From a virus, in the IMG/VR virus record IMGVR_UViG_3300031653_000005, positions 1 to 32,016 of that record: 32,016 nt of DNA; one strand, written 5' to 3'. The stretch's first letter is position 1. Each line of letters starts with the position of its first letter. Positions 5,702 through 27,588 of the stretch are shown here, piece after piece. The notes below the pieces were generated by a model, which saw only the letters and a list, made by a program, of their open reading frames with translations, was not told the DNA's origin and did not search any database. The position numbers were made by a program, and so were the translations under genes.

Positions 5702-6430
5702 TCAGCTCCGAATCGAACCCCCACCCTCCGGGTGCGAAGGGTCGATAGCCAGCCCCAGACGCCCGAGCGCAGCCAGCGGATCTTGAAGGTTGAGGCCCTG
5801 GGCCTGCAGCGTGAGCACGGCCTCTCGTCGCTGTGCGGCCTGCACATCGAACCGCACCACGTCCATTTTCAGCATGTCGCCCGGGCAGGCCTCGAACGCC
5901 CCGGGCTTTTTGTTGCCACTGTCATCAGCTCCCGGCGCCTCGCCGTGACCCATCAGCGCCGGCAGGATCTGGCCCTTGTGGTTGACCTCTAGCCTCTGGC
6001 AGTAGGCGAGGACCAGCCACTTGAGCAAGTTGATCAGAGCGCTGTACTGCGTGAGCGGGGGCGGCTGGTGTCGGAAGTCCCCGACCATCACCACGCCTAT
6101 CGCCCGGCTGTTCCAAACTCTCGCGTGTGGACTCGCGAGCTCCAGCGGCACCACGTAATCAATCCGCCCATCCGGCCAGACCATAAGCGGGTAGGGGTGT
6201 TTCCAGCCAGTCCCTAGGTCGTGCTCGCAAAACATCCGCGCGAACTCGACCGCTGTAATAGTCGGCAGGGTCGGCAGGCCTAGGTTCGTACGCATCTTCC
6301 ACGGGTCGCAACGGTGGACCAGAATGCTGTCGATCGCAGCCAGCCCGGTTTGCTCGCCTTGCCGCCGCTCTTGGTAGGGTTTTACCCCTGGCCTCACCAG
6401 GGCCAACACTTCCTTCGTCAGGTCCCGCAT
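5702..6430 (-). CDS. N-acetylmuramoyl-L-alanine amidase endolysin
   Basis: A 242-residue protein of the zinc amidase (Amidase_2/PGRP) type, which cleaves the bond between muramic acid and the first L-alanine of peptidoglycan. Likely zinc ligands are His39 (SILVHRCD), His162 (LMGHGEAPG) and Cys182 (EACPGDML), in the order used by T7-type lysozyme. The core strands IDYVVPLEL and AIGVVMVGDF also fit. The start at 6430 has an SD (GGGAG, about 8 nt upstream). It is the last gene of the late operon and follows a holin gene. No signal peptide is present, so release depends on the holin. The C-terminal 40 residues are extra relative to minimal amidases. Confidence 0.88.
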   Translation of the reverse strand: MRDLTKEVLALVRPGVKPYQERRQGEQTGLAAIDSILVHRCDPWKMRTNLGLPTLPTITAVEFARMFCEHDLGTGWKHPYPLMVWPDGRIDYVVPLELASPHARVWNSRAIGVVMVGDFRHQPPPLTQYSALINLLKWLVLAYCQRLEVNHKGQILPALMGHGEAPGADDSGNKKPGAFEACPGDMLKMDVVRFDVQAAQRREAVLTLQAQGLNLQDPLAALGRLGLAIDPSHPEGGGSIRS

Positions 6431-6699: not shown

Positions 6700-6948
6700 C
6701 TAAGCGGGCGGCTTGGAAGGGTCCGCAACGGCGCTCGCCGCAGCCGTCAGCGCGCTGGCCTTGGAGTTTGCAGACTTGACGATGGCACGCGACGCCGTAT
6801 AGCCGAGCGCCCCGAGCAACGAAGCCGCGAGCCCGAGCACGCGCTCCCAGGTCGAGCCCGCCGCAATGAGGCCGCTACTCATCGCAAAGCCGATCAACAC
6901 GGCGACCAACGAAAGCCAGAACTCTGATGTAGAATACCCTTTAGTCAT
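6700..6948 (-). CDS. Two-pass holin
   Basis: An 82-residue protein starting at ATG 6948 with a strong SD (AAAGGAGA). It has two hydrophobic helices, about residues 10-31 (FWLSLVAVLIGFAMSSGLIA) and 36-57 (RVLGLAASLLGALGYTASRA), with a short loop and a basic/Ala-rich C-terminus. The start MTKGYSTSEFWL and the GYTASRA end of the second helix are typical of a common phage holin type. It would form lesions in the inner membrane at a set time and release the amidase, whose gene is next but one downstream. Confidence 0.82.
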   Translation of the reverse strand: MTKGYSTSEFWLSLVAVLIGFAMSSGLIAAGSTWERVLGLAASLLGALGYTASRAIVKSANSKASALTAAASAVADPSKPPA

Positions 6949-6963
6949 AGCCCATCTCCTTTG

Positions 6964-7137
6964 TCAGAGAAAAAAATGCCCCATCAGGCACCCGAATGCA
7001 AACGGCACAACCGGCCAGCGCTTGGACCACTCCCAGATGCGCTGGCTGATAGTCGACCTACGGGCAAGCACCAGACCGAGGTCCACGGCCAGCGTGCCAC
7101 CGACGACCACGACGATCACCCAGGTCGTCACGTCCAT
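6964..7137 (-). CDS. Small membrane protein with GHFF end
   Basis: A 57-residue protein from ATG 7137. A GTG at 7161 would extend it by eight residues but has no ribosome binding site, so I chose the ATG. Residues 2-22 form a hydrophobic segment (DVTTWVIVVVVGGTLAVDLG), then a basic helix (RRSTISQRIWEWSKRW) and a second weakly hydrophobic end (PVVPFAFGCLMGHFFL). I recognise the SxRxWxWxxxWPVxPFAxGxLxGHFF end as recurring in phage lysis regions. It may be a second holin or an antiholin, which is inference. It precedes the main holin and overlaps the 22-residue gene. Confidence 0.6.
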   Translation of the reverse strand: MDVTTWVIVVVVGGTLAVDLGLVLARRSTISQRIWEWSKRWPVVPFAFGCLMGHFFL

Positions 7138-7196
7138 CGTTCCACCATGGGCAGTGCCCACACCAGCAGCAAGACTACCGCGATCCCGAAGATCAT
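7128..7196 (-). CDS. 22-residue hydrophobic peptide, coupled to the receiver gene
   Basis: A very short frame: ATG at 7196-7194 overlaps the TGA of the receiver-domain gene as TGATG, and the stop is TGA at 7130-7128. An SD-like run (AAAGGGGG) sits upstream. The peptide is MIFGIAVVLLLVWALPMVER plus WT, with a hydrophobic core of about 15 residues and a basic end. Its size and position suggest a membrane peptide in the lysis cassette. It could also be only a translational bridge to the next gene, with which it overlaps by 10 bases. Confidence 0.5.
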   Translation of the reverse strand: MIFGIAVVLLLVWALPMVERWT

Positions 7197-7951
7197 CACC
7201 TGCCCCCTTTGTCGCGCCGATAGTCTACTTTTCGGTCGATCCGGTCAACGGTTTTGGCGATCGTCTCCAGCTGCTTCAGGATGATCTGGTGGATGGCTGT
7301 AGCGTCTTCCTTCGTCACATAGCGGCGCTCGTCCTCCAGCTCGTGGTCTTTGATCTCTTGGGCGTTGGCCGAGACCTCATTTTTGTTCGCGTGGTTGGGA
7401 AAAAACCCCACCCACCCCTGCGACGTCAAGAAGGTCATGACGGCAACCGTCGCCATCACCGCTCCCACGATCCCCGCCCCTACTCTCTTGGCCGAACCAC
7501 CGACCGCAAAGATCCTGTTGCTCGATGTCCTGTTGGCTGTTCGACGTTCGATCCACTCGCTATCCCGATGCTGGGCTAATGCCTTGCCGATGGCCTGGTC
7601 TAGCCTGTCGAAGTCACCACGCGCCAGCACCTCTTGCTTGACGAGATACTCGACGGCCCCCGCCCGGATGGCGTCAAGCTCCCCGTTCTGTGGCTCGGTA
7701 GCCGTCAGCACCACGATCGGCTTGTTGTCGCCGAACGCCTGCCTAGCCAGGCGCACGGTGCGTGCCCCACCAGAATCCTGCAGCCCAAGATCCAAGAGCA
7801 CCACGTCAAAGCCCCCGGCGTAGCGCACGGCCTCCTGTAGCGTCTCGAAGGTCTCCAGGTGGTAGGTGCCGCGCTTGTCGTTAGAGTGAAACAGGCGACG
7901 GACGGCGCTCAAATGCTGCGTATTGTCGTCGATGTAGATGACGTGGATCAC
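7196..7951 (-). CDS. Response-regulator receiver domain fused to membrane anchor and coiled coil
   Basis: A 251-residue protein starting at GTG 7951, overlapping the upstream lipoprotein stop (GTGA). Residues 1-125 are a complete receiver (CheY-like) domain: acidic pair Asp8/Asp9 (VIYIDDN), phospho-acceptor Asp54 (VVLLDLGL), Thr83 (IVVLTAT) and Lys105 (EYLVKQE). Residues 126-156 are basic, residues 157-176 form one membrane helix (VGAGIVGAVMATVAVMTFLT), and residues 187-251 are helical with heptad-like spacing (ETIAKTVDRIDRKVDY). The basic side before the helix predicts receiver in the cytoplasm and coiled coil in the periplasm. There is no DNA-binding output domain. It lies inside the lysis cassette. 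A phosphorylation-sensing lysis or spanin-like role is inference; the domain calls are firm. Confidence 0.85.
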   Translation of the reverse strand: MIHVIYIDDNTQHLSAVRRLFHSNDKRGTYHLETFETLQEAVRYAGGFDVVLLDLGLQDSGGARTVRLARQAFGDNKPIVVLTATEPQNGELDAIRAGAVEYLVKQEVLARGDFDRLDQAIGKALAQHRDSEWIERRTANRTSSNRIFAVGGSAKRVGAGIVGAVMATVAVMTFLTSQGWVGFFPNHANKNEVSANAQEIKDHELEDERRYVTKEDATAIHQIILKQLETIAKTVDRIDRKVDYRRDKGGR

Positions 7952-8184
7952 AACGTGACCTCACAGTCGTTCTCGTCGACCGCGTAGCATTCCTCGGCCA
8001 TCCGTTCGCAGCAGTAGAACACCTCGTGCCCGGTGTAGATCCTGGTCACAAACAGCGATCGGTTGCGGTCGTGACATTGCTTACGTGCACACTCGCGCTT
8101 GTAGGCAAGCTGGGCGTCCCACCTGGCGATCGTCGCGCATGACGCCATGGCGAGGGCCGCTACTGCAAGTCCGAGTCGTCCCAT
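7948..8184 (-). CDS. Small Cys-rich lipoprotein (o-spanin candidate)
   Basis: A 78-residue protein with an N-terminal lipobox: hydrophobic LGLAVAALAMASC, with the acceptor Cys at residue 16, so it should be lipidated and anchored in a membrane. The mature part has six further cysteines (for example CARKQC and CCERMAEEC), suited to disulfides outside the cytoplasm. It overlaps the 3' end of the gene upstream, and its stop overlaps the GTG of the receiver-membrane protein. Outer-membrane spanin subunits are small lipoproteins in exactly this context, so a spanin role is plausible. The Cys content and gene order are unlike typical Rz1. Confidence 0.65.
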   Translation of the reverse strand: MGRLGLAVAALAMASCATIARWDAQLAYKRECARKQCHDRNRSLFVTRIYTGHEVFYCCERMAEECYAVDENDCEVTL

Positions 8185-8846
8185 ACCCGTTCAAAGTCCG
8201 CTTGGGCGCCTTGCGGGCCGCGCGTTGTCTCGCATGGGTAAGGTCGGCTTCCGTTCACCGGTTGGCACGCGCCATCACCCGGTTGCCCCGGGCCGTCAAT
8301 GCGTGTGGTGATGCCGTACCGACAGAGCGTGCCGTCGGGCTGTAGCCAGCAGTCGCTTAGCGGCGCAATGAGCTGTCGACAGTTGCTGGCGGTAGTCAGC
8401 GTCAAGCACGTCTCCACGAGCTGGCCGAACGAGCCGAGCCATTTCGCGGATGTCGGGTTGTCATCGGCAAACGCCTTGAGCCTACCAGCCACCAGCGGGT
8501 GGGCCTCGATCTGCACCACCTGCCAGTTGTTGCCGCCGACCGTCACAAATGGCCCGGTCTTGATCTGATACTGCACAGAGTCAGAGCAGCCCTCCGGGGT
8601 AATCGAACAGATCCCACCCTGGCACATGCCCAGGGTATCGGGCAGCGCCAAGCCCTGTTTGCGGGCAGCGTAATAGGTGTACTGGCCCTGGACGTCGTTC
8701 GCATGCTGGGCAACGGTCGCCCACTGTCCGCAGTCGACGCCTTGCTCTTGCATCGCCACGTACAGTGCCGTCGCGAAGGTGCCCCCGATGCCGACGATGA
8801 CCACAGCCCGGCGCCAAACCGACTTGAAGGTGTCGAGTAGGCTCAT
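8160..8846 (-). CDS. Cys-rich membrane-anchored protein
   Basis: A 228-residue protein from ATG 8846, one base after the stop of the adhesin gene. Residues 13-32 are hydrophobic after a basic stretch (KSVWRR), giving an N-in signal anchor (AVVIVGIGGTFATALYVAM). The remaining part is extracytoplasmic by this topology and has ten cysteines in close pairs (MCQGGICSITPEGC, CLTLTTASNC, CWLQPDGTLC), consistent with disulfides. No family was recognised. It sits at the border between tail and lysis genes. It could be an envelope-exposed exclusion or lysis factor, or part of the adsorption apparatus. The sequence does not decide. Confidence 0.65.
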   Translation of the reverse strand: MSLLDTFKSVWRRAVVIVGIGGTFATALYVAMQEQGVDCGQWATVAQHANDVQGQYTYYAARKQGLALPDTLGMCQGGICSITPEGCSDSVQYQIKTGPFVTVGGNNWQVVQIEAHPLVAGRLKAFADDNPTSAKWLGSFGQLVETCLTLTTASNCRQLIAPLSDCWLQPDGTLCRYGITTRIDGPGQPGDGACQPVNGSRPYPCETTRGPQGAQADFERVWDDSDLQ

Positions 8847-8847
8847 A

Positions 8848-10764
8848 CTATGGCCTCACAATTTTAACGTCTTGGAGACACGCATTCGGGACATAGGCGA
8901 GGTTCGGTGTGGAATCCGCCCCTATGCGGATCGTCGTCTGCCCCGATGGGTTTGACCTGGCGGTCGTCGATGTCCCCTGCGATACGTTGTCAACAAGCAA
9001 CTGGTATTTGTCGGAGTCATAATTGAGATCCCATCGTGCCCGGTATGACGTTCCTGGGGTCAACGCAAAAACGCCTCCGGCGATATCCGTGGCCCCTCCC
9101 GGCACAGTGAAGAAGGACCACTTCTCCGACGCATCAATGTAGGCCAAGGTTCTTTGGTTCGCTGTCCCATTGTCCATCTGCAAAAGAGTTTGCAAGTTTA
9201 CGTAGTCGGCAATGAATGGCATGTAGGTCATGTCAATAAAATACCTACCGCTCAGATAGCCGCCGGTAACAATTCCGGTTGCCGCATAGCTCAACAGATC
9301 CGCCCCAGCCGTCACCCCGGCCGTGGTCGTCGGTACGTCAATGGACGGGATCCAGGTCTGCGCCTTGAACACCTCGGCGGTCATCGCCGCGTGACCCTGG
9401 GATGCCCCAACGGCGTCAGTCGGATAGAGCTTGATGACAACGTTCGTGCAGTTGGCATCAGCGTACGTCACTCCCGCACACCCGCACTTGGCCGCGGTGC
9501 TCGTCGCAAACGACAAGGCGGCAGGGAACACCTCGGCAGGAGAGCTGCATCCGCCGCCTGTCGTCTCCTGGTAGCTCATCGCCACGTTGCCCGTGCTGCT
9601 CTCGGTCGCCGCGCAGACACAGAGGGCCGATGTCGTGCCGGTTGCAGTCTTGGCCAAGGTCTGTGTGATGTACCCGGCGTTCGTCCCGTCTGCGTCCACC
9701 GCCTTGTACTGTTGGCGACCATCTCCATACCAGCTTGCCGTCGACGTGGCGACCGTCGCGTTGCTGGTGGTCCACGTGGTGTGTAGATCGATGCTTTGGA
9801 TGATGCTGTTCGTCACGCTCGGCTGCGCATGGTAGGCACAGGTAGCAGGCGACCCGCCGCCAGTGAGCCCCGGGGGGATCTCGCAACCCTTGCGTGGGAA
9901 GTCGTCTGAGAAGCACTCGATCTGGCCGTCAACCCAGCAACAAGTCGGGCCAGTATTGCTAAAGGTTGGGGTGGCGCCCTTCTCGTCGTGGATGCCCTCA
10001 ACCCATGCGGCAAGCGTGGCCATCTGTGCATCGGTCAATGCACTGGACCACAGCCACACGCCAACAAGGTCGCCCGTCCACAAACTAGCATGAGTCTCAA
10101 ATTGCCCGCCTACCATCCACGCGCGCGAAACATTGACCGTACCTACGGTCCCAGCGGTTGTACCACACGAACCATTCATGCACGCCTGGACGGCTGCCCC
10201 GCTTGCCGTGATCCGTCCACAGCAAAGACCCCATGCATTAGATGAAATGGTCGCCGTAGAGCTCGCCAAGCGCGACACAGATCCGTCATCAGCCAAGAAC
10301 GAGCAGACGGTAGAGTTAGGAAACAGCGCCCACCCATCACCACTCGCACTGTCACGCTTTGCGGTATAGACCCCCGATGTTCCTCCTCTGGTGATGGCGC
10401 ACACCGTGAAGTCACCGGTTCCCGGATCTCCGATATCGTCCCACGAGTCGTAATAGGTTCCTGACCCGGTAAACCGATTTGCCACCATGCCGTTGGTGAT
10501 GTCGTCCCACCCACCGTCAGAGGCGAGAGGCGAGTAGATCGATGCCGGGGAGCCGTTCGACGTGAACTCAGTCGTGCCCGTTACGCTGTCGTTTGTGGGA
10601 GCACTCCCCAGCCATACATGCGCTGGCGTCGGGAAATTCGCCGGTAAGTCATCCCACGCGCCCATGCCGTTACGGGGGAGGGCAGCGTGGAAGACGGTGC
10701 GGCCTCCTATTCCATATTGTTGGATTTGCCCAACAGTCAACGCAAATATTATTTGTATTATCAT
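8848..10764 (-). CDS. LamG/concanavalin-like adhesin or tail protein
   Basis: A 638-residue protein. The start ATG 10764 overlaps the previous TGA (ATGA); a TTG at 10785 would add seven residues. The first 16 residues are hydrophobic, but a classic basic n-region is missing, so secretion is uncertain. Residues about 60-270 form a jelly-roll-like domain, with WDDIGDPGTGDFTVCAITRG and a typical LamG end, VWLWSSALTDAQMATLAAWV. The middle is Cys-rich (CCWVDGQIECFSDD), and about residues 500-638 look like a second carbohydrate-binding-type domain ending CLQDVKIVRP. Such domains bind glycans. It is probably a receptor-binding or decoration protein next to the tailspike. Confidence 0.7.
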   Translation of the reverse strand: MIIQIIFALTVGQIQQYGIGGRTVFHAALPRNGMGAWDDLPANFPTPAHVWLGSAPTNDSVTGTTEFTSNGSPASIYSPLASDGGWDDITNGMVANRFTGSGTYYDSWDDIGDPGTGDFTVCAITRGGTSGVYTAKRDSASGDGWALFPNSTVCSFLADDGSVSRLASSTATISSNAWGLCCGRITASGAAVQACMNGSCGTTAGTVGTVNVSRAWMVGGQFETHASLWTGDLVGVWLWSSALTDAQMATLAAWVEGIHDEKGATPTFSNTGPTCCWVDGQIECFSDDFPRKGCEIPPGLTGGGSPATCAYHAQPSVTNSIIQSIDLHTTWTTSNATVATSTASWYGDGRQQYKAVDADGTNAGYITQTLAKTATGTTSALCVCAATESSTGNVAMSYQETTGGGCSSPAEVFPAALSFATSTAAKCGCAGVTYADANCTNVVIKLYPTDAVGASQGHAAMTAEVFKAQTWIPSIDVPTTTAGVTAGADLLSYAATGIVTGGYLSGRYFIDMTYMPFIADYVNLQTLLQMDNGTANQRTLAYIDASEKWSFFTVPGGATDIAGGVFALTPGTSYRARWDLNYDSDKYQLLVDNVSQGTSTTARSNPSGQTTIRIGADSTPNLAYVPNACLQDVKIVRP

Positions 10765-11150
10765 TGGCAAACAAGCAATCGCCAATCGCCGTTAACTGCA
10801 ACACTCAGCAATGATAAATATTGCACAGCAGTTAGCCCATGTGTGCAAAACACGTACAAGTTATCAGCCCTTAGCTTTATTTGGTCACCTGCGCTCGCCG
10901 TAACCGCAGACGTTCCCCATTTTGCCCATGCATCGGAGTCGCCCTCTAGCATGTAGCACGTATCTACGCCAATTGCCCCACTATCAGCATCTGTTCCAGT
11001 GGTGGCCTGCAGTACGGTCGATGACGCAGTTGACGGAACGCAAATACCGCCACGCATAATGGCAGGATACCTTGCGCTGTCCCTTGTTGGTTGCGCATCC
11101 GCAACCAGCGGGAAAAGCAGTACAGAAAAAATACTAATAAGTTTTCTCAT
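10761..11150 (-). CDS. Small secreted protein with signal peptide
   Basis: A 129-residue protein starting at ATG 11150 (ATGA overlap with the tailspike). Residues 1-19 form a good Sec signal peptide (MRKLISIFSVLLFPLVADAQ) with a probable cut after ADA. The mature part is beta-rich with three cysteines (ICVPS, TCYMLEGDSDAWAKWG, FCTHG). No family was recognised. A Sec signal on a protein within a tail operon is unusual, because virions normally assemble in the cytoplasm. The N-terminus resembles that of the protein at 23176 (MRKxLxI), and both could belong to one export strategy. Confidence 0.7.
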   Translation of the reverse strand: MRKLISIFSVLLFPLVADAQPTRDSARYPAIMRGGICVPSTASSTVLQATTGTDADSGAIGVDTCYMLEGDSDAWAKWGTSAVTASAGDQIKLRADNLYVFCTHGLTAVQYLSLLSVAVNGDWRLLVCQ

Positions 11151-13564
11151 GACGCAGAGTCTCCCGCCGTTGTGAATGTCCCAGTTGTGTTAGACGTAGA
11201 TATACTCAGAAACACATTACCATCGTTTATAGACTTCCCAGTGGCTGCAACTTCTATTCCGTAGGTACCATTAGTGATCACATTTCCTATCGCAGCAAAG
11301 CCGCCGGTGATCGTACCACCATGACAAATATTGCTATCACTATCGTTGCCACGAATGAGTGAGTTGCCGATAATAATGATATCCGCAGGGTTTCCTACGC
11401 TGCCGGCGGCATACATGTTGATAATAAACGAATCAGCCGGTGGACTGCTGCAATACACAACATTACCGGAGATAACAGCAACGCCAGAGGCAACACCGGT
11501 CGTAAACTTGATGCCATTTCCAGAAACCGTATAAATTTGATTTCCAGAGATCGTCGCATATTTGCAGCTACTGAGCAGTATACCATCGGCATCGCTTGTC
11601 CCGCCGCCTGCGTATAGGACGTTTCCAAAGATACCAAGCCGTGTAACACCGGATACGCTGATCATCGCGGTTACCGATGTATTATCGTCGAGCTTAATGC
11701 TGTTCCCGTTAATCACCACATCAAGGGCCGATGCCGCATAGATCCCGATCCCAGGGCCAGCCGTCCCAGAGTGCTGATTTATTACGTTGTCGTGGATAAC
11801 CACGGCGCCCACGCCACCAAGCGTATCGGCATAGATAGCTGTCTGCGTTCCTGCGGCCTGGCACCAAATGTTGTTGTTGCCTATATTTATGCTGTAACAC
11901 GACGATGCAAACTTAATACCATGCGTATACGTCCCCCCGCCTAGCTCTATGTGGTTTCCGCTGATGTTGACGGCGTCAACACCATCTTCATTTGATAGAT
12001 TAATGGCGATGTCAGATCCGGTCCCCGACTTGCATGTGTTGTTAGTGACCTCGAGCAGCACCATTGGGCTGCCTTCAACGATCACATAGTCACCGGCCGG
12101 CGCGCTTATCGTATTCTCTGCGATGACAACGTGATTTATGTAGAGCGATGTATTAGTGACGTGAATCGCGTGAGTCTCCCCGCCAATGATCGTATTGCCC
12201 TTGATCTCAATAAGCGGATTGTCGTCGACAAGCTGCGTAACCTTGATTGCCACACCTTCAGGATTGCGTATCGTGTTATTCACGACCCGCGTAACAAAAC
12301 CACCAAGAAGGATGGCCGCAGTTGATGCTACAGACGGGTTTATGTCGCATATAATACTATTGTTTTGGATGATGGTGTAGGCAGCACCCTCTGCAACCTC
12401 TATCTGCCCACACCATACTAGCTTGCAGTTTTCTACGGTTACATCCCTGGTGATGCCGTCGTAGGTTCCGTAGTCATCGCCGATCTCTATGGCCTGCAGT
12501 GCCCTTTCTATATTGCATCCATCGATGCGCACATCACGCGACGCATCGGCAACAATGATACCGCCGGCCTCAGCCGATGTTTTTTGGTAAAAAAAGCAGT
12601 CAACAATGTCCACGCCGTAGCAATCGGCAACCACCAGGCCTTCATTGGCGCTAGTGGACTGCACCTTTACGTTTCTTATTGTTAGCCTTTCGGCGTATTG
12701 AAAATAGCACGCATAGCCACCGTCAGGAGAAATGATTGTTAGGTCTTCAATGGTGATGTCGGTTGCTGGGGCGAGTATCTCTTCCACGAATGGCAAAGTA
12801 GAATAGGTTCCTAATATCACCCCATCGACGATTAGATCGCCACCGGATATTTGTTCGATTCTAAATAACTCGGCATACTTGTGGCCCGATGCCAAGGTAT
12901 CTGAGCTACGCACCCTAATCAGATCGCCAACGGAATACCCAGAAACACTTGTCGGAGTTATGGTTTGCGTTCCGGCTGTAGCCGTACATGATAGGGCTGT
13001 GCTTGTGGTTGCGCTGGTACTCAGGCCAAATGTCGACGCAGCCTGTGAAAAGTCAAGAACTCCGTTTCTTATCTTGATCTTCGAGGATAGGGTAATGGGG
13101 CTATCAACACGGTATGTTTTACCCTCCAGGTCCAATATCCCAGGAGCCTCTCCATCTGATTCCATGGCGGTTATCGCTGCGGCTATTGCCGTGTAATCGT
13201 CCGTTGCTCCATCACCAGCCGCCCCATAATCCATAGGGGATCTCGCGATTTCTTTTCGCCTGGTGAGTTCATCTACAGAAAGTGACTTAGCGAATTGCTC
13301 TTCCTTCGTATAGATGACGTTGTCATCTGCATCGGTAAGCTTCAGCCGATAGCCCTCATCCTCAAGACCGAAAATAGCGCCAAAACGCCCAGCCGCATCC
13401 GCAACAACTGGATTGGCATTGACGTTTGGGTCAGTCATTGCCTTGTCGGAATACGTGTCCTTAGGCGTGCTTGTCCCTGTGGTATACCAATAGGCCTTGG
13501 CTCCGGCCATAATGGCGCCGCTATCGTCGAGTGGCTGCCACCCATTGTCACGAAGAGCGCCCAT
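11147..13564 (-). CDS. Right-handed beta-helix tailspike
   Basis: An 805-residue protein. Residues 1-90 form the attachment module common to phage tailspikes, with AYWYTTGTSTPKDTYSD and NPVVADAAGRFGAIF. Residues about 109-131 have the pectate-lyase-like entry MDYGAAGDGATDDYTAIAAA. A long series of beta-helix coils follows, with NxI, NxIxG and GNxI repeats (for example VVIHDNVINQHSG, VVINGNSIKL, IISGNQIY), continuing to about residue 780. The protein should trimerise and bind or degrade host polysaccharide; the enzymatic class is not visible. The start ATG 13564 overlaps the previous stop as TAATG. It has no S74 end of its own. Confidence 0.88.
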   Translation of the reverse strand: MGALRDNGWQPLDDSGAIMAGAKAYWYTTGTSTPKDTYSDKAMTDPNVNANPVVADAAGRFGAIFGLEDEGYRLKLTDADDNVIYTKEEQFAKSLSVDELTRRKEIARSPMDYGAAGDGATDDYTAIAAAITAMESDGEAPGILDLEGKTYRVDSPITLSSKIKIRNGVLDFSQAASTFGLSTSATTSTALSCTATAGTQTITPTSVSGYSVGDLIRVRSSDTLASGHKYAELFRIEQISGGDLIVDGVILGTYSTLPFVEEILAPATDITIEDLTIISPDGGYACYFQYAERLTIRNVKVQSTSANEGLVVADCYGVDIVDCFFYQKTSAEAGGIIVADASRDVRIDGCNIERALQAIEIGDDYGTYDGITRDVTVENCKLVWCGQIEVAEGAAYTIIQNNSIICDINPSVASTAAILLGGFVTRVVNNTIRNPEGVAIKVTQLVDDNPLIEIKGNTIIGGETHAIHVTNTSLYINHVVIAENTISAPAGDYVIVEGSPMVLLEVTNNTCKSGTGSDIAINLSNEDGVDAVNISGNHIELGGGTYTHGIKFASSCYSINIGNNNIWCQAAGTQTAIYADTLGGVGAVVIHDNVINQHSGTAGPGIGIYAASALDVVINGNSIKLDDNTSVTAMISVSGVTRLGIFGNVLYAGGGTSDADGILLSSCKYATISGNQIYTVSGNGIKFTTGVASGVAVISGNVVYCSSPPADSFIINMYAAGSVGNPADIIIIGNSLIRGNDSDSNICHGGTITGGFAAIGNVITNGTYGIEVAATGKSINDGNVFLSISTSNTTGTFTTAGDSAS

Positions 13565-13968: not shown

Positions 13969-16166
13969 CACTCACCACCTTTTGGAACTTGCCCGATACC
14001 GAGCTTGGTCAAGGACGCCATAATTGCACGCGCCATTGTATCAGATACTTTTTCTTTGCCTACACCAACCCGCATAGCCTTGTTCACCAATTCTATGCCC
14101 TCTGGCGTTGACACGGCCCGCAAAACAGCGGCCTCGTTATTGGTGAACGACTGCAACCAATTAAGGAGCACACCGTGGAAGCCGCCACCAATTCCGGCTG
14201 CCTTGCTGACGTCTTGCAGGCTTTGCGCCATTAACGGAGCGGTCTGCGATCCCCTGACCCCGCTCCCCTGTGCCAAGCGCTGCATCAACTCCATGATCTC
14301 CCGTAGCTTGAGCAGTGACTTACCATCTCCAGCATATGCCGCCTGGAGCTTGGGCTCCGCATCACTCAACAAGCTAAGCGCCCTACCCGGTTGCAGCTTG
14401 TCGATGCCGAGGCTTCCGGATATCGGAGATCCTATTGACGGCTTACCGCCTTTCACTAGTAGGTTTTCCAACATCTGCGCTCTAAGTTGGGAAGCAACTG
14501 CCGGATCTTGTTTATTGAGGACATTGAACACACCTGCAATTTGGCGCGGTGACCCTGCCGTTATCTTTTGGACAAGCGTATCACCACCATCCTGTCCGCT
14601 AATCTTCAGGATCTTGTTGATGGTGTTTGTGGCTGTGTTCTCGATCTCCGCCGAATATGCGCGCCAAGCGTCCCTAGCTGCCTTAAGCGTAGCAGCATCA
14701 CCGGCCGAAGTTGGCAATGGTGGGGGTTGTCCAGCGATCGACTTTTGAAGTATCTGCGATGTGGCACCCCTTACATTGTTTGCTACCTGAGACACGCTTT
14801 GATCCAGGTCCTGCGCCAGTGCCGCTGATACTTTTCCGGCTATCATGCGCTGCTCTGCTGTTTGCAGCCCCTCGATGATTGTTTTATTGCTGTACGATGC
14901 CTTCCCCCAAATAGACATCAGCCTGCTCATGGTCTTAGCGCTTATTTCGCTGGCGTTCCCGCTTTCGTTGGTTATCGCCTTTAGCGTGGACTCGAGCTGG
15001 CGAGAAATGTTGTTCCCTGGCACAATCGAATACTCATCTATGAGCGCTTTGAGTGTTTGGGCTGTATTTTCCAGGTTGACCACTTTTTTATTGCCGAGGG
15101 ACTGGAACAACGGCCCAACATCAGCAGACCGCTTATTGACCAGGCTTTCTATGTGCCGCTCAACGGTTGATGCCACCATATCGCTGACTTCTGCGTTATC
15201 GAGCCTGCTCGGATTTGATGAAACCTTGGCCACAACGCCATCGAGCCATTTTGCACTCTGCCTAATTTGTTTCGTGGCCTCATCCTGGGCTTTGGTCATG
15301 ATCCCAGGGAATTGCATGGCCTTGCTTTCAGCCAAGGCCAATGAAGGATCGCCTGTGAGTTGACTTGGACGCAGTCTGAATTTCTCGCCTATATCCTGTG
15401 ACACCATCTGCTCTAGCTGGCGCCCACGTTCGGCGAATGTGGATTGTGGTGTCGCTCTGTCGATGGTCGACACCTCGTTCCCGGTGGACGCTATGTCCCT
15501 GGCTACCTGCTCGGCTCCAGCACTGGTTCCCCGTAATCTGTTGATAATTGCTCCAGCTCCATTTGCCAGACCATACCCAACACCACCAGCAGCGCCACCA
15601 ATGAGCGTACTGATCCCAGCATCCTTTAGCGCGCCAACAACATCGCCCTTGGTCATATCGGCACCAGACGACCCAAGACCGGCAACCCCACCATACGCAG
15701 CACCCGTACCTATGGCTGCTGGTAGGCTTGCGGTAGCTGCAGCAGGCAACGCCAATGCAGCGGCCCCAACACCACCCGCTATTTCACCGGCACCATATGT
15801 TTTCGGATTTTCTACCTTTGCAGCCACATCAAGGGCACGCTGAGCATCACGCATGTTGCGATAGCCTTCAACACCACCGACACCCATACCCGGACCTTCT
15901 GGGGATGCTGGCCACACGGCATTAAGTGCACCCATTATCTCATCCATGAACCCACCGGTGGCGCCCTGACTTAGGCCGGCAGCTGCCGACTCAATTGCGC
16001 TTGGCTTGTATTCTGGTTGTTGGCCAAGAGCTGCGAGTAGCTCTTTGTCGCTCATCTCTGATGGTTTTTTTTGATGCGCCTGCACGGACCGACGCCCGCC
16101 GCCTGCGCGCTGGCGCTTGAGCTCGTCAAGCAACTCTTGGTCGCTCATCTGCGAGACGTCGGTCAT
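13968..16166 (-). CDS. Large DNA-ejection / internal virion protein
   Basis: A 732-residue protein beginning MTDVSQMSDQELLDELKRQR, followed by a near-repeat MSDKELLAALGQQ. Residues about 125-215 are very Ala/Gly-rich (GAGEIAGGVGAAALALPAAA, GAAGGVGYGLANGAG), like the membrane-active segments of P22 gp16/gp20-type ejection proteins. The rest is a long helical region (for example KEKVSDTMARAIMASLTKLG). Ejection proteins leave the capsid and form a trans-envelope channel for DNA. It lies downstream of two other ejection-type genes, as in P22. No lytic transglycosylase Glu motif was identified. The overlap with the next gene is TGATG. Confidence 0.75.
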   Translation of the reverse strand: MTDVSQMSDQELLDELKRQRAGGGRRSVQAHQKKPSEMSDKELLAALGQQPEYKPSAIESAAAGLSQGATGGFMDEIMGALNAVWPASPEGPGMGVGGVEGYRNMRDAQRALDVAAKVENPKTYGAGEIAGGVGAAALALPAAATASLPAAIGTGAAYGGVAGLGSSGADMTKGDVVGALKDAGISTLIGGAAGGVGYGLANGAGAIINRLRGTSAGAEQVARDIASTGNEVSTIDRATPQSTFAERGRQLEQMVSQDIGEKFRLRPSQLTGDPSLALAESKAMQFPGIMTKAQDEATKQIRQSAKWLDGVVAKVSSNPSRLDNAEVSDMVASTVERHIESLVNKRSADVGPLFQSLGNKKVVNLENTAQTLKALIDEYSIVPGNNISRQLESTLKAITNESGNASEISAKTMSRLMSIWGKASYSNKTIIEGLQTAEQRMIAGKVSAALAQDLDQSVSQVANNVRGATSQILQKSIAGQPPPLPTSAGDAATLKAARDAWRAYSAEIENTATNTINKILKISGQDGGDTLVQKITAGSPRQIAGVFNVLNKQDPAVASQLRAQMLENLLVKGGKPSIGSPISGSLGIDKLQPGRALSLLSDAEPKLQAAYAGDGKSLLKLREIMELMQRLAQGSGVRGSQTAPLMAQSLQDVSKAAGIGGGFHGVLLNWLQSFTNNEAAVLRAVSTPEGIELVNKAMRVGVGKEKVSDTMARAIMASLTKLGIGQVPKGGE

Positions 16167-17326
16167 TGCGCTATTAGTCCTCGTCGCCTGGCTTCTGCCT
16201 CGATATCACTAACCGTGGTTTTCCTGGGCTGCTTATTGTTCTGGATGGCCTTGTCGTAGCCAAGATCCAGCACAACGTTTTGCGGATCAAAACCAGCACG
16301 TTGCGCAAGGCCTCGGTATTGCTGGGCTACCGCCTCATATCTACCGAGCTGCGCCTTAAACAAGCCATTGGCTTCACGCATAAACCCGGACCTCTGTTCT
16401 GGCGTCAATATCTTGCCCTTCACTGCGCTATTGTACATGTTGATGATCTGCCCAGGGATTCCCGTGGTGTTCTTGGCGCTTGCATATTCCCCTTCTCTCA
16501 CAACCGACGTCGGATCCATCAACTTCATATAGGCAAACACCAACGCCATATCGCCTTGAGCGCTGGCGCTTGTGGCCTTGGCCCTAGCCAAGGCCTCGGC
16601 AATAAGCGATGTATTTTTGTATGTTGCTAGATTCTGGAATTCCTGGCGTAGCTTTAGCTCTGTAGGCGCATTTCTGCCGCCCTGTGCCTTAAGTGCTTCC
16701 TCGGCAGCCAGGCGATCGTTATATGCCTGCGAGAATTCCACTGTTCCTGGCTGTAGTCTTTGGCCGAGAATTACCTGCTTCGCGATGTCATCAAGCGGCA
16801 GCTGCTTTTGGTCCTCGGGCTTCGGGGCACCAAGCACACCAGACGCAGATCCCTGGAGTTGCATAGCAAGTTGGTCTGGATTTTGCTGCTCTGTTGGCAG
16901 CCCATGTGGCTGATCATTTTGGTGCGGGTTCAATGAGCTCTGTATGTTGGCAATAGCATTATTCTCGTTATAAACATCCGACCCCTGGGCGTTGGCCTGC
17001 GGCGCCTGCTGCTGTTCACCCATGAGCCCCTGAGACTGCAACCACTGCATTACCATAGGCGCCTGTGATGGATTGGCCTGAATGAGCTGAGCAGCATAGC
17101 GCTTTTTATTTGCCATCTGCTGCTCGATCATCGCCTGCTGCTTGGCTAGGTCTTCCTCAGCCGTCTTTCGTTGCTGCGCCTCTGCCTGGGCCTTGGCAAA
17201 TGCCATGCGCTCTTGTTCATTGGCCTGCTGTTGTCGAGATGACCCAGTAAGGCCGCCAGCCTGCAACGAACCAACAAGCTGCCCAAGGCTTGGCTGCTGA
17301 TTCAGCAATGCATAAAAGCCAGCCAT
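16163..17326 (-). CDS. Ejection-type internal virion protein, Gln-rich
   Basis: A 387-residue protein from ATG 17326 (TGATG); GTG 17329 is an alternative. Residues 28-85 form a coiled coil rich in Gln/Ala/Lys (QANEQERMAFAKAQAEAQQR). Residues about 118-133 hold GSDVYNENNAIANIQ, and a helical C-terminus follows (YEAVAQQYRGLAQRAGFDPQ), ending DIEAEARRRGLIAQ. Low-complexity Gln-rich helices and the position between the gp7-like and large ejection genes support a role in DNA injection. Exact homology to P22 gp20 cannot be shown by eye. Confidence 0.7.
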   Translation of the reverse strand: MAGFYALLNQQPSLGQLVGSLQAGGLTGSSRQQQANEQERMAFAKAQAEAQQRKTAEEDLAKQQAMIEQQMANKKRYAAQLIQANPSQAPMVMQWLQSQGLMGEQQQAPQANAQGSDVYNENNAIANIQSSLNPHQNDQPHGLPTEQQNPDQLAMQLQGSASGVLGAPKPEDQKQLPLDDIAKQVILGQRLQPGTVEFSQAYNDRLAAEEALKAQGGRNAPTELKLRQEFQNLATYKNTSLIAEALARAKATSASAQGDMALVFAYMKLMDPTSVVREGEYASAKNTTGIPGQIINMYNSAVKGKILTPEQRSGFMREANGLFKAQLGRYEAVAQQYRGLAQRAGFDPQNVVLDLGYDKAIQNNKQPRKTTVSDIEAEARRRGLIAQ

Positions 17327-18297
17327 CACGCAGCCTTTCGCACAATGTTTTCGAGCATCTCATAATTCACCATCATATACCCGTGGGCAACGGTGATAAC
17401 CTCCGGGTATTTCTCGGCGACCTCCTGGGCAATTACCCCATTGGACCTGCCCTCGAGGCCAAACCGAGTTTTGGCCTTATCGTTCCACGCGAAGCTCACA
17501 CCTCGTAGGCCAATACGTTCATACCTAGATCCTTTGATCGTGCGAATATCTGTTTTCAGTCTCTCATCGGAGAATGCAGCCATACCAAGCCCGGCCAAAT
17601 TCATCATTGCATTGGTTTGCGCTTGCTGCCCCATGCCGGCGGCACCTGCGTATTGGTTGTTTGCATTCATCTGCGATTGCGCTGATTGCATGCCGACCTG
17701 GCCAACACCGCCCATCAATCCAGCTGCATTTGCCCCAAGTCCAGAATAAAGATTGGCCAAACTTTGCCCGGTTCCACCGTAAATTCCAGCCTGAGCCTGG
17801 GCTAGGTTGTTTTGCATGCCGGATTGCACCTGCTGGCGGTTGGCAAAGTTTCCGAACTCCTGCGATGCAAGACCCTGATTGAAATTCGCTAGCGCTTTTA
17901 GCTGTGCCCCGCCAAGCCTTCCACCCTGGGCCGCCGCAGATCTGTTGAGCGCCTGCTCCCCCTGCTGCAGCCTAAACTGATACCCAGGATCCTGTTGGAA
18001 TCCTGAATACATATTTCCTAATTGTCCTTGAGCTCCCTGTAGAACACCAAGCGCCCCCTGCTGCCCAGACTGCAAGGCGCCAACCCCTTGCTGGCCATAG
18101 TCCTGCAGATAACCAAGGCCCTTCTGTGCTTGATCCTGATAAAACTGCTGGGCCTGCTGTGCAAGTAGCCGATTCTGCTCTGCGGCATATTGCTGCGCCG
18201 CCTGTTGTTGTTGTGCGCCGCTCGTGAGGCCAAGGCCACTAGTGATATCACCAATTACACTGCCAACTCCGCTTGCGATGTCTCCCAAGAAACTCAT
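17326..18297 (-). CDS. DNA-transfer protein with C-terminal S74-type chaperone domain
   Basis: A 323-residue protein. Residues 1-240 are Gln/Gly/Ala-rich, beginning MSFLGDIASGVGSVIGDITS, with QQQQAAQQYAAEQNRLLAQQ and NQGLASQEFGNFANRQQVQS. This resembles DNA-transfer (gp7-like) proteins of P22-type phages. Residues 242-323 are a peptidase S74 / intramolecular chaperone-like end: FSDERLKTDIRTIKG, then YERIGLRGVSFAWN, GVIAQEVAEKYPEVI and a final helix. S74 domains assist trimer folding of fibres and often cleave themselves just before the conserved Ser of (F/L)SDxRLK. Here the domain sits on an ejection protein, not on the beta-helix spike. Autocleavage would fall near residue 242-243. Confidence 0.8.
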   Translation of the reverse strand: MSFLGDIASGVGSVIGDITSGLGLTSGAQQQQAAQQYAAEQNRLLAQQAQQFYQDQAQKGLGYLQDYGQQGVGALQSGQQGALGVLQGAQGQLGNMYSGFQQDPGYQFRLQQGEQALNRSAAAQGGRLGGAQLKALANFNQGLASQEFGNFANRQQVQSGMQNNLAQAQAGIYGGTGQSLANLYSGLGANAAGLMGGVGQVGMQSAQSQMNANNQYAGAAGMGQQAQTNAMMNLAGLGMAAFSDERLKTDIRTIKGSRYERIGLRGVSFAWNDKAKTRFGLEGRSNGVIAQEVAEKYPEVITVAHGYMMVNYEMLENIVRKAA

Positions 18298-25431: not shown

Positions 25432-27588
25432 ATGGCTGATGCTGGCGCCCCACCGACTGGCAAGGGCGATGTGGTCGCCGTTGAGGTCACTGCCGTAGCC
25501 ATAGAGCTTCCGTCGCTCGCTACTCGTATTGAGTGGTTTGATGACTGGGAGCAGCAGACACGTAGCGCCCGCAAGCTGGCTATTCGCGATAGGGAATATT
25601 ACGACTGCATCCAATGGACCCGCGAGGAGATAGATACGCTTAGGGAGCGCGGGCAGCCTGTCATCACCAAGAACCGCATTGCCAAGAAGATCAATTTCAT
25701 TCTAGGCGAGGAGATCAAGAAGCGCATTGACCCTGCAGGCAGGCCACGCACACCGGCACACGAAGATGCAGCAAGGTCGGCAACTGATGCCTTGCGCTAC
25801 GTAAAGGACGCCCAGAAGTTCGATCAAGCGCGGAGTGCCGTGCTAAAGGATATGCTGATTGAAGGATACGGCGGCGCCATTAAGCAGATCAATGAAGACG
25901 GAGATCCGGAACTAACACACGTCCATTGGGACAGGCTTGGTTATGACCCAAAAAGCCGCGCACCAGATTTTAGTGATGCAAAATATGTGTTCATCGTCAA
26001 TTGGTTCGATCTCGACGATGCTATCGCAGAATACCCTGACGCAGCAGAGGACATCGAGGAAGCCGTAAACGGCGCTCCGGTTGTCTCCTACGACGACACG
26101 ACAGAAGACGTCCCGCGCCTATGGCTAGATGGCAGGCGAAAGCGTGTAAAAATCGTTGAGATGTATTCACGGGTTGGGGGCAATTGGTTTCGCTTTGACT
26201 TTACCAAGGGACATGATCTCAGGCCACCTGCGCCCACCGGTTACCTCAATGAAAAGCGCACCAAGCATGTGCGCCCTCTGCTTATGGCGAGCTGCTACGT
26301 AGATCGCAATGGAATGAGATACGGCGTTGTGCGCAATCTCATCAGCTCACAGGACGAGGTCAACAAGCGCACAAGCAAGGCACTTCACCTGCTAAGCGTC
26401 CGCCAGGTGATAGCTGAACGTGATGCAGTGCTTGACCCGCAGAAGTTTCAAGCCGAACTCGCCAAGCCCGATGGGTACGCAGAAACGGAGCCAGGCGCCC
26501 TTACCGATCGCAGAGTGCAGACAAAAGAGACCGGAGACCTCGCACAAGGACAGGTCATCCTGCTGCAGGAGGCAAAGCAAGACATTGACACTATCGGCCC
26601 TAGCTCATCGCAATTGGCGCAAGGTCCGGCCACAGCCACGAGTGGTCGCGAGTTTATCGCTCGCCAGCAGGCAGGCAGCCAGGAGATCGGCCCGGTATTT
26701 GACTCACTCAGGGAATGGGATCACGCGGTATTCCTGCTTGACTGGCTATGTATTCGTCAGACGTGGACCGAAGAAAAATGGTTGCGCGTGACAGACGACC
26801 TTGAGCTGTCGGGCTATCGGTTTACTGCCTTGAACAGACGAATGACACGCGCACAACGGTTGCAGGAGATACTCAACAAGCAACCGCCGCCGCCGATGGA
26901 CAAGGCAATGGGCATTGCTGCCGGGGTCATGGCCCCAATGATCATGGCCCAAGCACAATATCAGCTGCAGCAGCTGCAACAGCAAGCACAGCAAGCGGCA
27001 CAACAGGCGACGCAGGCGACGCAAATGGGCGCAGCCCCACCGGAACTCGCACAACAGGCACAACAACAGCTTGCGGCGCTTGGCCAACCACAGACATTGG
27101 TCGGCATCATCATGCGTAACCCGCTGATGTCCGAGGAGATCACGGCCAACCAAGTAGAACAGATGCTTATCGATATTGTGATCGACGAGGCACCGGAAAC
27201 TGCGGTTATCCAGCAGGAAGAGTTTGAGAAGCTTGCGGAGATCACGCCAACCATCGTTCAGGGTCGACCGGACATGGCACCACTCATGGCCAAGCTCTTG
27301 ATCCGATCATCGCAGCTGCGAGACAAACGAGAGATGCTCCAGGAACTCGAAAAGCCGCCAGATCCACAGCAAGTCCAATTGCAGCAGCAGATGCAGCAAC
27401 TAGCACAGGAGCAGGCAAAGGCGTCTGTCCATGTGTCGCAATCACACGCCATACTCAACCAGGCGAAGGCCGCGGAGGCCACGGTAACAGCCAAGGCCAA
27501 GGAAGCTATCTTGCCGAGTGAAGACCTCAAGAACCGCGGGGCCGCAATGCATGACGCGGCTATCGTCGGGGAGAAAATGTCACCATGA
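25432..27588 (+). CDS. P22-like portal protein
   Basis: A 718-residue protein matching the P22-type portal family, the dodecameric DNA entry port. Early segments include WFDDWEQQTRSARKLAIRDR, YYDCIQWTREEIDTLRERGQ and PVITKNRIAKKINFILGEEI, then the stem/wing parts EVNKRTSKALHLLSVRQVIA and a core FIARQQAGSQEIGPVFDSLR. The C-terminal 200 residues are Gln/Ala-rich helices (for example AQYQLQQLQQQAQQAAQQAT), like the long C-terminal barrel of P22 gp1. Length matches P22 gp1 (about 725). It is encoded on the opposite strand to terminase, scaffold and capsid. Its stop overlaps the next start. Confidence 0.9.
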   Translation: MADAGAPPTGKGDVVAVEVTAVAIELPSLATRIEWFDDWEQQTRSARKLAIRDREYYDCIQWTREEIDTLRERGQPVITKNRIAKKINFILGEEIKKRIDPAGRPRTPAHEDAARSATDALRYVKDAQKFDQARSAVLKDMLIEGYGGAIKQINEDGDPELTHVHWDRLGYDPKSRAPDFSDAKYVFIVNWFDLDDAIAEYPDAAEDIEEAVNGAPVVSYDDTTEDVPRLWLDGRRKRVKIVEMYSRVGGNWFRFDFTKGHDLRPPAPTGYLNEKRTKHVRPLLMASCYVDRNGMRYGVVRNLISSQDEVNKRTSKALHLLSVRQVIAERDAVLDPQKFQAELAKPDGYAETEPGALTDRRVQTKETGDLAQGQVILLQEAKQDIDTIGPSSSQLAQGPATATSGREFIARQQAGSQEIGPVFDSLREWDHAVFLLDWLCIRQTWTEEKWLRVTDDLELSGYRFTALNRRMTRAQRLQEILNKQPPPPMDKAMGIAAGVMAPMIMAQAQYQLQQLQQQAQQAAQQATQATQMGAAPPELAQQAQQQLAALGQPQTLVGIIMRNPLMSEEITANQVEQMLIDIVIDEAPETAVIQQEEFEKLAEITPTIVQGRPDMAPLMAKLLIRSSQLRDKREMLQELEKPPDPQQVQLQQQMQQLAQEQAKASVHVSQSHAILNQAKAAEATVTAKAKEAILPSEDLKNRGAAMHDAAIVGEKMSP

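Follow-up and report, generated by a model that had tools for sequence, protein, structure and literature searches.

Timing of lysis is a central decision in the life of a phage, and the timers that have been described are holin/antiholin clocks, sensors of superinfection and transcription. The locus studied here raises the question of whether this decision may also be entrusted to a phosphorylation switch at the membrane. It lies in a 32-kb virus record (IMGVR_UViG_3300031653_000005, positions 1 to 32,016; this whole stretch is called the window below), in which a gene for a receiver domain joined to a membrane helix stands within the lysis region. The original prediction read this arrangement as a phospho-switch wired to the lysis machinery, a reading that we continue to hold in conditional form.

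The receiver/membrane protein and its neighbourhood

The window carries P22-like structural genes (head closure, coat, portal and terminase), and its late genes on the minus strand lead from the head and tail genes into the lysis region, where a gene for a 228-aa protein, a lipoprotein-like ORF, the receiver gene, ORFs of 22, 57 and 82 aa and the gene for an Amidase_2 protein follow one another in the order of transcription (Table 1). The end of the gene for the 228-aa protein, for which no phage relative was found, overlaps the start of the lipoprotein-like ORF by 25 nt. The latter, located upstream of the receiver gene and transcribed before it, overlaps it at GTGA, and the receiver gene in turn overlaps the 22-aa hydrophobic ORF at TGATG, both junctions being as originally described; a Shine-Dalgarno candidate, AAAGGGGG, precedes the 22-aa ORF. 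In addition, the codon-position GC of the receiver gene is coding-like, and its GC3 (0.78) is the same as that of the flanking genes. Together, the overlaps and the shared GC mark it as a real operon gene and not an assembly accident. No family match was obtained for the lipoprotein-like ORF in Pfam or PHROG, and it did not pass a stricter lipobox scan. Of the holin and amidase expected downstream, the amidase was recovered by family, with a further match to the phrog_822 amidase (E=2e-4), whereas the 82-aa ORF had no PHROG or other family match and bears its holin label by inspection; the 57-aa ORF likewise had no family match.

Table 1. Features of the lysis region of the window, in the order of transcription
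Feature	Position	Strand	Basis or remark
228-aa protein, N-terminal membrane helix and Cys-rich exported part	8160..8846	-	hydropathy peak at residue 14
Cys-rich lipoprotein-like ORF, 78 aa	7948..8184	-	lipobox-like MASC, by inspection
Receiver / membrane helix / helical tail protein	7196..7951	-	GTG start, 251 aa
Receiver domain, about residues 1-128	7568..7951	-	Pfam, residue columns, model, PDB matches
Phospho-acceptor Asp54 codon	7790-7792	-	
Single predicted membrane helix, residues 157-177	7421..7483	-	hydropathy and model
C-terminal helical tail, residues 190-247	7211..7384	-	two helices in model
22-aa hydrophobic ORF	7128..7196	-	TGATG overlap with receiver gene
Small membrane ORF, 57 aa from ATG; 65 aa from GTG 7161	6964..7137	-	hydropathy
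Two-helix membrane ORF, 82 aa, holin candidate	6700..6948	-	hydropathy, position, by eye
Endolysin, N-acetylmuramoyl-L-alanine amidase (Amidase_2)	5702..6430	-	PF01510, E=9.9e-11

The product of the receiver gene matched PF00072 (Response_reg) over residues 4-106 in a Pfam profile search (E=5.9e-11; 43 bits against a curated cut-off of 30.2 bits), and Asp8, Asp9, Asp54, Thr83 and Lys105 all occupy the canonical receiver columns in the alignment, so that the complete set of receiver residues first reported for this protein is in place. In the AlphaFold2 model, for which the alignment took in 25 viral receivers, a receiver fold (pLDDT mostly above 90) is followed by a long linker helix (114-149), a helix at 157-177 and two C-terminal helices (190-208 and 214-247) of lower confidence (pLDDT about 56-81); the best structural matches of the model in the PDB were receivers, for example KdpE and PmrA. 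Hydropathy gave one peak only, at residues 157-176 (value 2.13), and the claim of a single membrane helix with a C-terminal helical part was thereby borne out. The receiver side of this helix is rich in Arg and Lys, and the receiver is therefore predicted, by the positive-inside rule, to be cytoplasmic. Judged from its sequence, the protein has no DNA-binding domain, again as first proposed, with phrog_731 aligning to it only at positions 3-103 of 227 and the match ending at the receiver; the CtrA-like protein of the contig L088 spans positions 2-226 of the same family. We had also considered phrog_731 as a phage family of receiver/membrane proteins and rejected it, as it is a family of OmpR/CtrA-type regulators. 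Searches with holin families gave no match to the membrane tails of the window protein or its L107 counterpart (see below), comparison of the window tail with holin or spanin PHROGs gave weak unnamed matches only, and a phmmer comparison with 32 sequences gave this tail a weak match, the membrane/coiled-coil protein of L154 (E=8.8e-5).

Apart from the receiver gene, the tail/lysis interval of the window encodes Cys-containing, seemingly exported or fibre-like proteins without close relatives (8160-8846, 8848-10785 and 10761-11150). In its C-terminal part, the protein encoded at 16163-17329 shares 44% identity with a virion structural protein of Myxococcus phage Mx8, a possible hint of the host group.

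Recurrence of receivers with membrane helices

Direct searches found no full-length homologue of the whole window protein among INPHARED phages or in IMG/VR, and the receiver was absent from 48 of 48 P22-like records related to the window through the head-closure protein Hc3, which indicates that the gene is lineage-specific here. Patterns derived from alignments were used to search IMG/VR for further receivers of this sequence type, and every locus was inspected, which gave a set that consists of the window and 31 non-DNA-binding receivers in viral contigs. Across these 32 receivers, the acid pair and the Lys are present in all and the Thr/Ser in 31; Asp54 is also kept in 32 of 32, a conservation that is not independent evidence because this column belonged to the search pattern. 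Loss of Asp54, which would have spoken against a phospho-switch, was thus seen in none of them, and the phosphorylation residues are also intact in the receivers of the cultured phages V22 and A5 described below. A receiver census of INPHARED was dropped from the statistics, since most matches were unannotated short contigs or bacterial-looking and likely to be contamination; short 'phage' records without annotation (Listeria, Salmonella, Staphylococcus and Acinetobacter), with DNA of bacterial appearance, made up most of them. A prophage search in bacterial genome contigs returned generic cellular receivers only, and these were used as a control.

Receivers and membrane helices are combined in several ways. 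Fusion to membrane helices was found in the window protein and in L107 (209 aa, two helices), and L097, L100, L124 and L141 carry receiver, coiled coil and C-terminal helix in one protein. Elsewhere the receiver adjoins a gene for a one-helix, usually coiled-coil, protein (L110, L094, L095, L123, L153, L140, L144, L145, L147 and others), or is separated from the one-helix gene by one gene (L133, L151 and L154). A further group (L092, L093, L101, L108, L243, L247 and L256) shows a row of kinase, Rcp1-like receiver, receiver and coiled-coil/membrane gene, and histidine-kinase ATPase domains were confirmed in the kinase-bearing viral contigs. In L087, L098, L113, L245 and L248, the receiver is fused to PAS domains and is followed by a membrane gene. 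The topology differs among these cases, as the coiled coil is predicted to be cytoplasmic in many of them and the corresponding part is predicted to be exported in the window.

We then asked how specific this association is, by one automatic rule based on a simple ORF caller and a hydropathy cut-off. Non-DNA-binding viral receivers had either a membrane helix of their own (5) or a directly adjacent one-helix gene on the same strand (18) in 23 of 31 cases. The corresponding count was 0 of 10 for OmpR-type viral regulators from the same collection (Fisher p=4e-5), and for small receivers that belong to the same subfamily but come from bacterial genomes it was 2 of 13 (p=6e-4). The 31 loci are not all independent but form 25 clusters at 40% identity, so that relatedness should inflate the test only mildly.

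Some of these loci have features of their own. The kinase-row contigs listed above are 38-196 kb long and appear to encode a phage phosphorelay that ends at the membrane. In L087, L113, L245, L248 and L249, the receiver carries PAS or other additional domains and precedes a coiled-coil/one-helix gene, behind which L245 has a DUF1353 gene. The gene directly after the receiver in L140 (5495-7543) matches a papain-family protease together with an intein/Hint domain, and genes resembling alpha/beta-hydrolases adjoin the receiver in L141 (4279-4869) and L152 (5339-6013), the call being a weak Abhydrolase_6 match in L152 and a resemblance only in L141.

Receivers at lysis genes in contigs and cultured phages

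Besides the window, receiver/membrane arrangements near lysis genes were found in at least five unrelated phages, namely L107, L110 and L153 and the cultured phages V22 and A5. In L107, 12 bp separate the end of the receiver/two-helix gene from a Phage_lysozyme gene that follows it (PF00959, E=5e-12), the receiver/two-helix product is the sole predicted membrane protein immediately around the lysozyme, and a secreted-type ORF and tail genes lie upstream. The order in L110 is tail, receiver, coiled-coil/membrane gene and Phage_lysozyme (E=9e-7), and that in L153 is tail, receiver, membrane gene and holin (phrog_1129, E=4e-5; sub-threshold against PF16079, E=1e-3). When endolysin families were searched over the whole non-OmpR receiver records, the window aside, an endolysin was adjacent in two (L107 and L110) and about 8 kb from the receiver in two more (L087 and L124); PF08291, PF13539 and PF01520 had no significant match at any non-OmpR receiver locus, and a regex search for lysozymes was set aside as too insensitive. 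Most of the kinase-bearing contigs had no endolysin among the six families tested, and for them a role in lysis is no more than possible. Homologues outside recognised lysis regions, a finding that the original prediction had named as speaking against it, do exist, namely in the large kinase-bearing contigs and in L087 and L124.

A structure search led to the cultured Alteromonas phage V22. Its gp30 (ORF30) and gp11 of Alteromonas phage A5 have been published as 'CheY-like', as a class II auxiliary gene and as part of a 'host recognition module' (PMC7289586, PMC10579305). The two belong to different phage families (V22, Myoalterovirus; A5, schitovirus), and in view of the published synteny over this module we count them as one exchanged module. 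Like the window protein, V22 gp30 and A5 gp11 are single receivers without a DNA-binding output and are encoded in the late region, between a tail-fibre chaperone and small membrane genes; unlike it, they are separate genes and not fusions. In both phages, the end of the receiver gene overlaps a gene for an Rz-like i-spanin (V22 ORF31 and A5 gp12; phrog_4297, E=7e-6 and 3e-8, respectively), and an unannotated gene for an o-spanin-like lipoprotein lies inside or after the i-spanin gene (phrog_456, E=1e-3 in V22 and 4e-3 in A5). A two-helix holin-like protein follows the o-spanin in both, and in A5 the annotated endolysin comes next. The published work draws no link to lysis, and the neighbouring spanins were recognised in the present analysis only.

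The V22 lipoprotein gene (MLKKSAILFLLILTGC...; L257 6493-6792, MN877442 record 26492-26791) overlaps ORF31, has the lipobox LTGC and very likely encodes the o-spanin of an Rz-like pair. Its counterpart in A5 (L258 3844-4176, OP481051 record 11343-11675) is unannotated and overlaps gp12. In both phages, the receiver gene is preceded by a short ORF that is weakly hydrophobic at its N-terminus and resembles a coiled coil over the rest of its length.

A possible signalling route to lysis and its rivals

The presence of a receiver at the membrane among lysis genes suggests that the time of lysis is, in some viruses, set by a cell-signalling pathway. For the window protein, we consider the case evenly poised that it is a membrane-tethered response regulator of the lysis cassette, acting as a phosphorylation switch on lysis control at the level of the membrane. 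In this model, a histidine kinase or a small phosphodonor would phosphorylate Asp54, the change in the receiver would alter the coupled membrane helix and coiled-coil segment, and that segment would act on the neighbouring holin or on other membrane lysis proteins, whereby the condition of the cell would decide whether lysis is advanced or delayed. Phosphorylation during infection, the responsible kinase, and the direction and target of the effect are all presumed here. No kinase gene was found in the 32-kb window record or in the small phages; the kinase would therefore be that of the host in the window, and a host kinase or acetyl phosphate would have to serve in the small phages, whereas the kinase encoded next door in the large contigs would be a ready-made phosphodonor for the module. 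The wider proposal, that a class of tailed phages controls lysis post-translationally by phosphorelay, with a phage receiver that is fused or coupled to a membrane/coiled-coil effector in the lysis cassette and is driven by a host kinase in small phages and a phage kinase in large ones, is in our view plausible but falls somewhat short of probable.

The tail-to-lysis stretch is a common site of accessory genes, so that adjacency alone is weak evidence and a late signalling decoy is a serious rival. Under such an explanation, a late-expressed accessory gene (a moron or class II auxiliary gene) would encode a receiver tethered to the membrane, which by competing for phosphoryl groups or docking on host kinases would alter host physiology, the envelope-stress response or chemotaxis, and the adjacency of the gene to lysis genes would be incidental. 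Single receivers can indeed serve as phosphate sinks, and the kinase-bearing large contigs have no visible tie to lysis; however, the constant pairing of the receiver with a membrane-helix gene, fused or adjacent, the translational overlap with the spanin gene in V22 and A5, and the placement of the L107 receiver/two-helix protein where a holin would be expected all argue against an incidental neighbour. We therefore regard the accessory role as a genuine though rather doubtful alternative, with the authors of the V22 and A5 studies having placed their CheY-like gene in the auxiliary class (PMC7289586, PMC10579305).

The original prediction also paired the window protein with the 78-aa lipoprotein as spanins, the former being an i-spanin with a cytoplasmic receiver and the latter the o-spanin. 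As in Rz/Rz1, an inner-membrane protein with a helical part (here a single membrane helix followed by a helical tail that is predicted to be exported) and a small lipoprotein are encoded in the cassette, and in the window the overlapping lipoprotein-like ORF is the only lipoprotein candidate that stands out. In known two-component spanins, however, the i-spanin gene precedes the o-spanin gene, whether the two are embedded, overlapped or separated, whereas the window has the lipoprotein gene before the receiver gene, and Rz/Rz1 have no receiver (PMC6139136). The predicted exported part of the window protein is, moreover, short (only about 70 aa), the lipoprotein-like product is rich in Cys and not in Pro, and neither has a spanin PHROG match, which is weak on its own given the diversity of spanins. 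The usual order of i-spanin and then o-spanin would instead be provided by the 228-aa protein encoded before the lipoprotein, whose N-terminus likewise carries a membrane helix. In addition, V22 and A5 encode their spanins separately, beside the receiver gene. We accordingly regard the pairing of the window protein with the lipoprotein as unlikely. Receivers can work without phosphorylation, and the small phages have no kinase that we could find, but a phosphorylation-independent receiver that serves as a docking module, for example in superinfection exclusion or in localising a membrane protein, is very improbable, since even highly divergent receivers retain all the phosphorylation residues, which would be unexpected for pure docking.

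The phosphorylation switch on lysis has partial counterparts in known systems. Within the open-access literature, our search found nothing that joins a receiver to a lysis cassette, in line with the earlier statement that no phage system of this form had been described; absence there is not proof of absence elsewhere. The CtrA-dependent 'lytic deferment' of Alphaproteobacteria phages is similar in that a two-component pathway is proposed to time phage lysis, but there a host DNA-binding regulator acts on phage promoters, whereas the window encodes a phage receiver that is bound to the membrane and does not bind DNA (PMC9437464). Antiholins and lysis inhibitors such as T4 RI/RIII and N4 gp62 with the gp63 pinholin are likewise cassette membrane proteins that make lysis timing responsive to a signal (PMC12642591 for N4), but they have no receiver fold; the 'Receiver domain' named in N4 is a short pinholin segment, not CheY-like, and is unrelated (PMC12642591). 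XhlA of PBSX, a small one-helix protein of a lysis operon that is required together with the XhlB holin and the XlyA endolysin, resembles the partner genes of the receivers, although its system has no receiver (PMC5589764); the partner genes tested had no Pfam match, and so no XhlA was recognised among them. Receivers of jumbo phages have been tied to NAD systems (PMC7824862).

V22 and A5 are in culture and have the gene within an identifiable lysis cassette, so the idea can be tested at once, in a marine host that is harmless. If it is correct, a phosphorylated receiver in the cassette would connect bacterial signalling directly, at the post-translational level, with the bursting of the cell, and it would explain why some viral contigs encode a histidine kinase of their own and receivers beside a small membrane protein.
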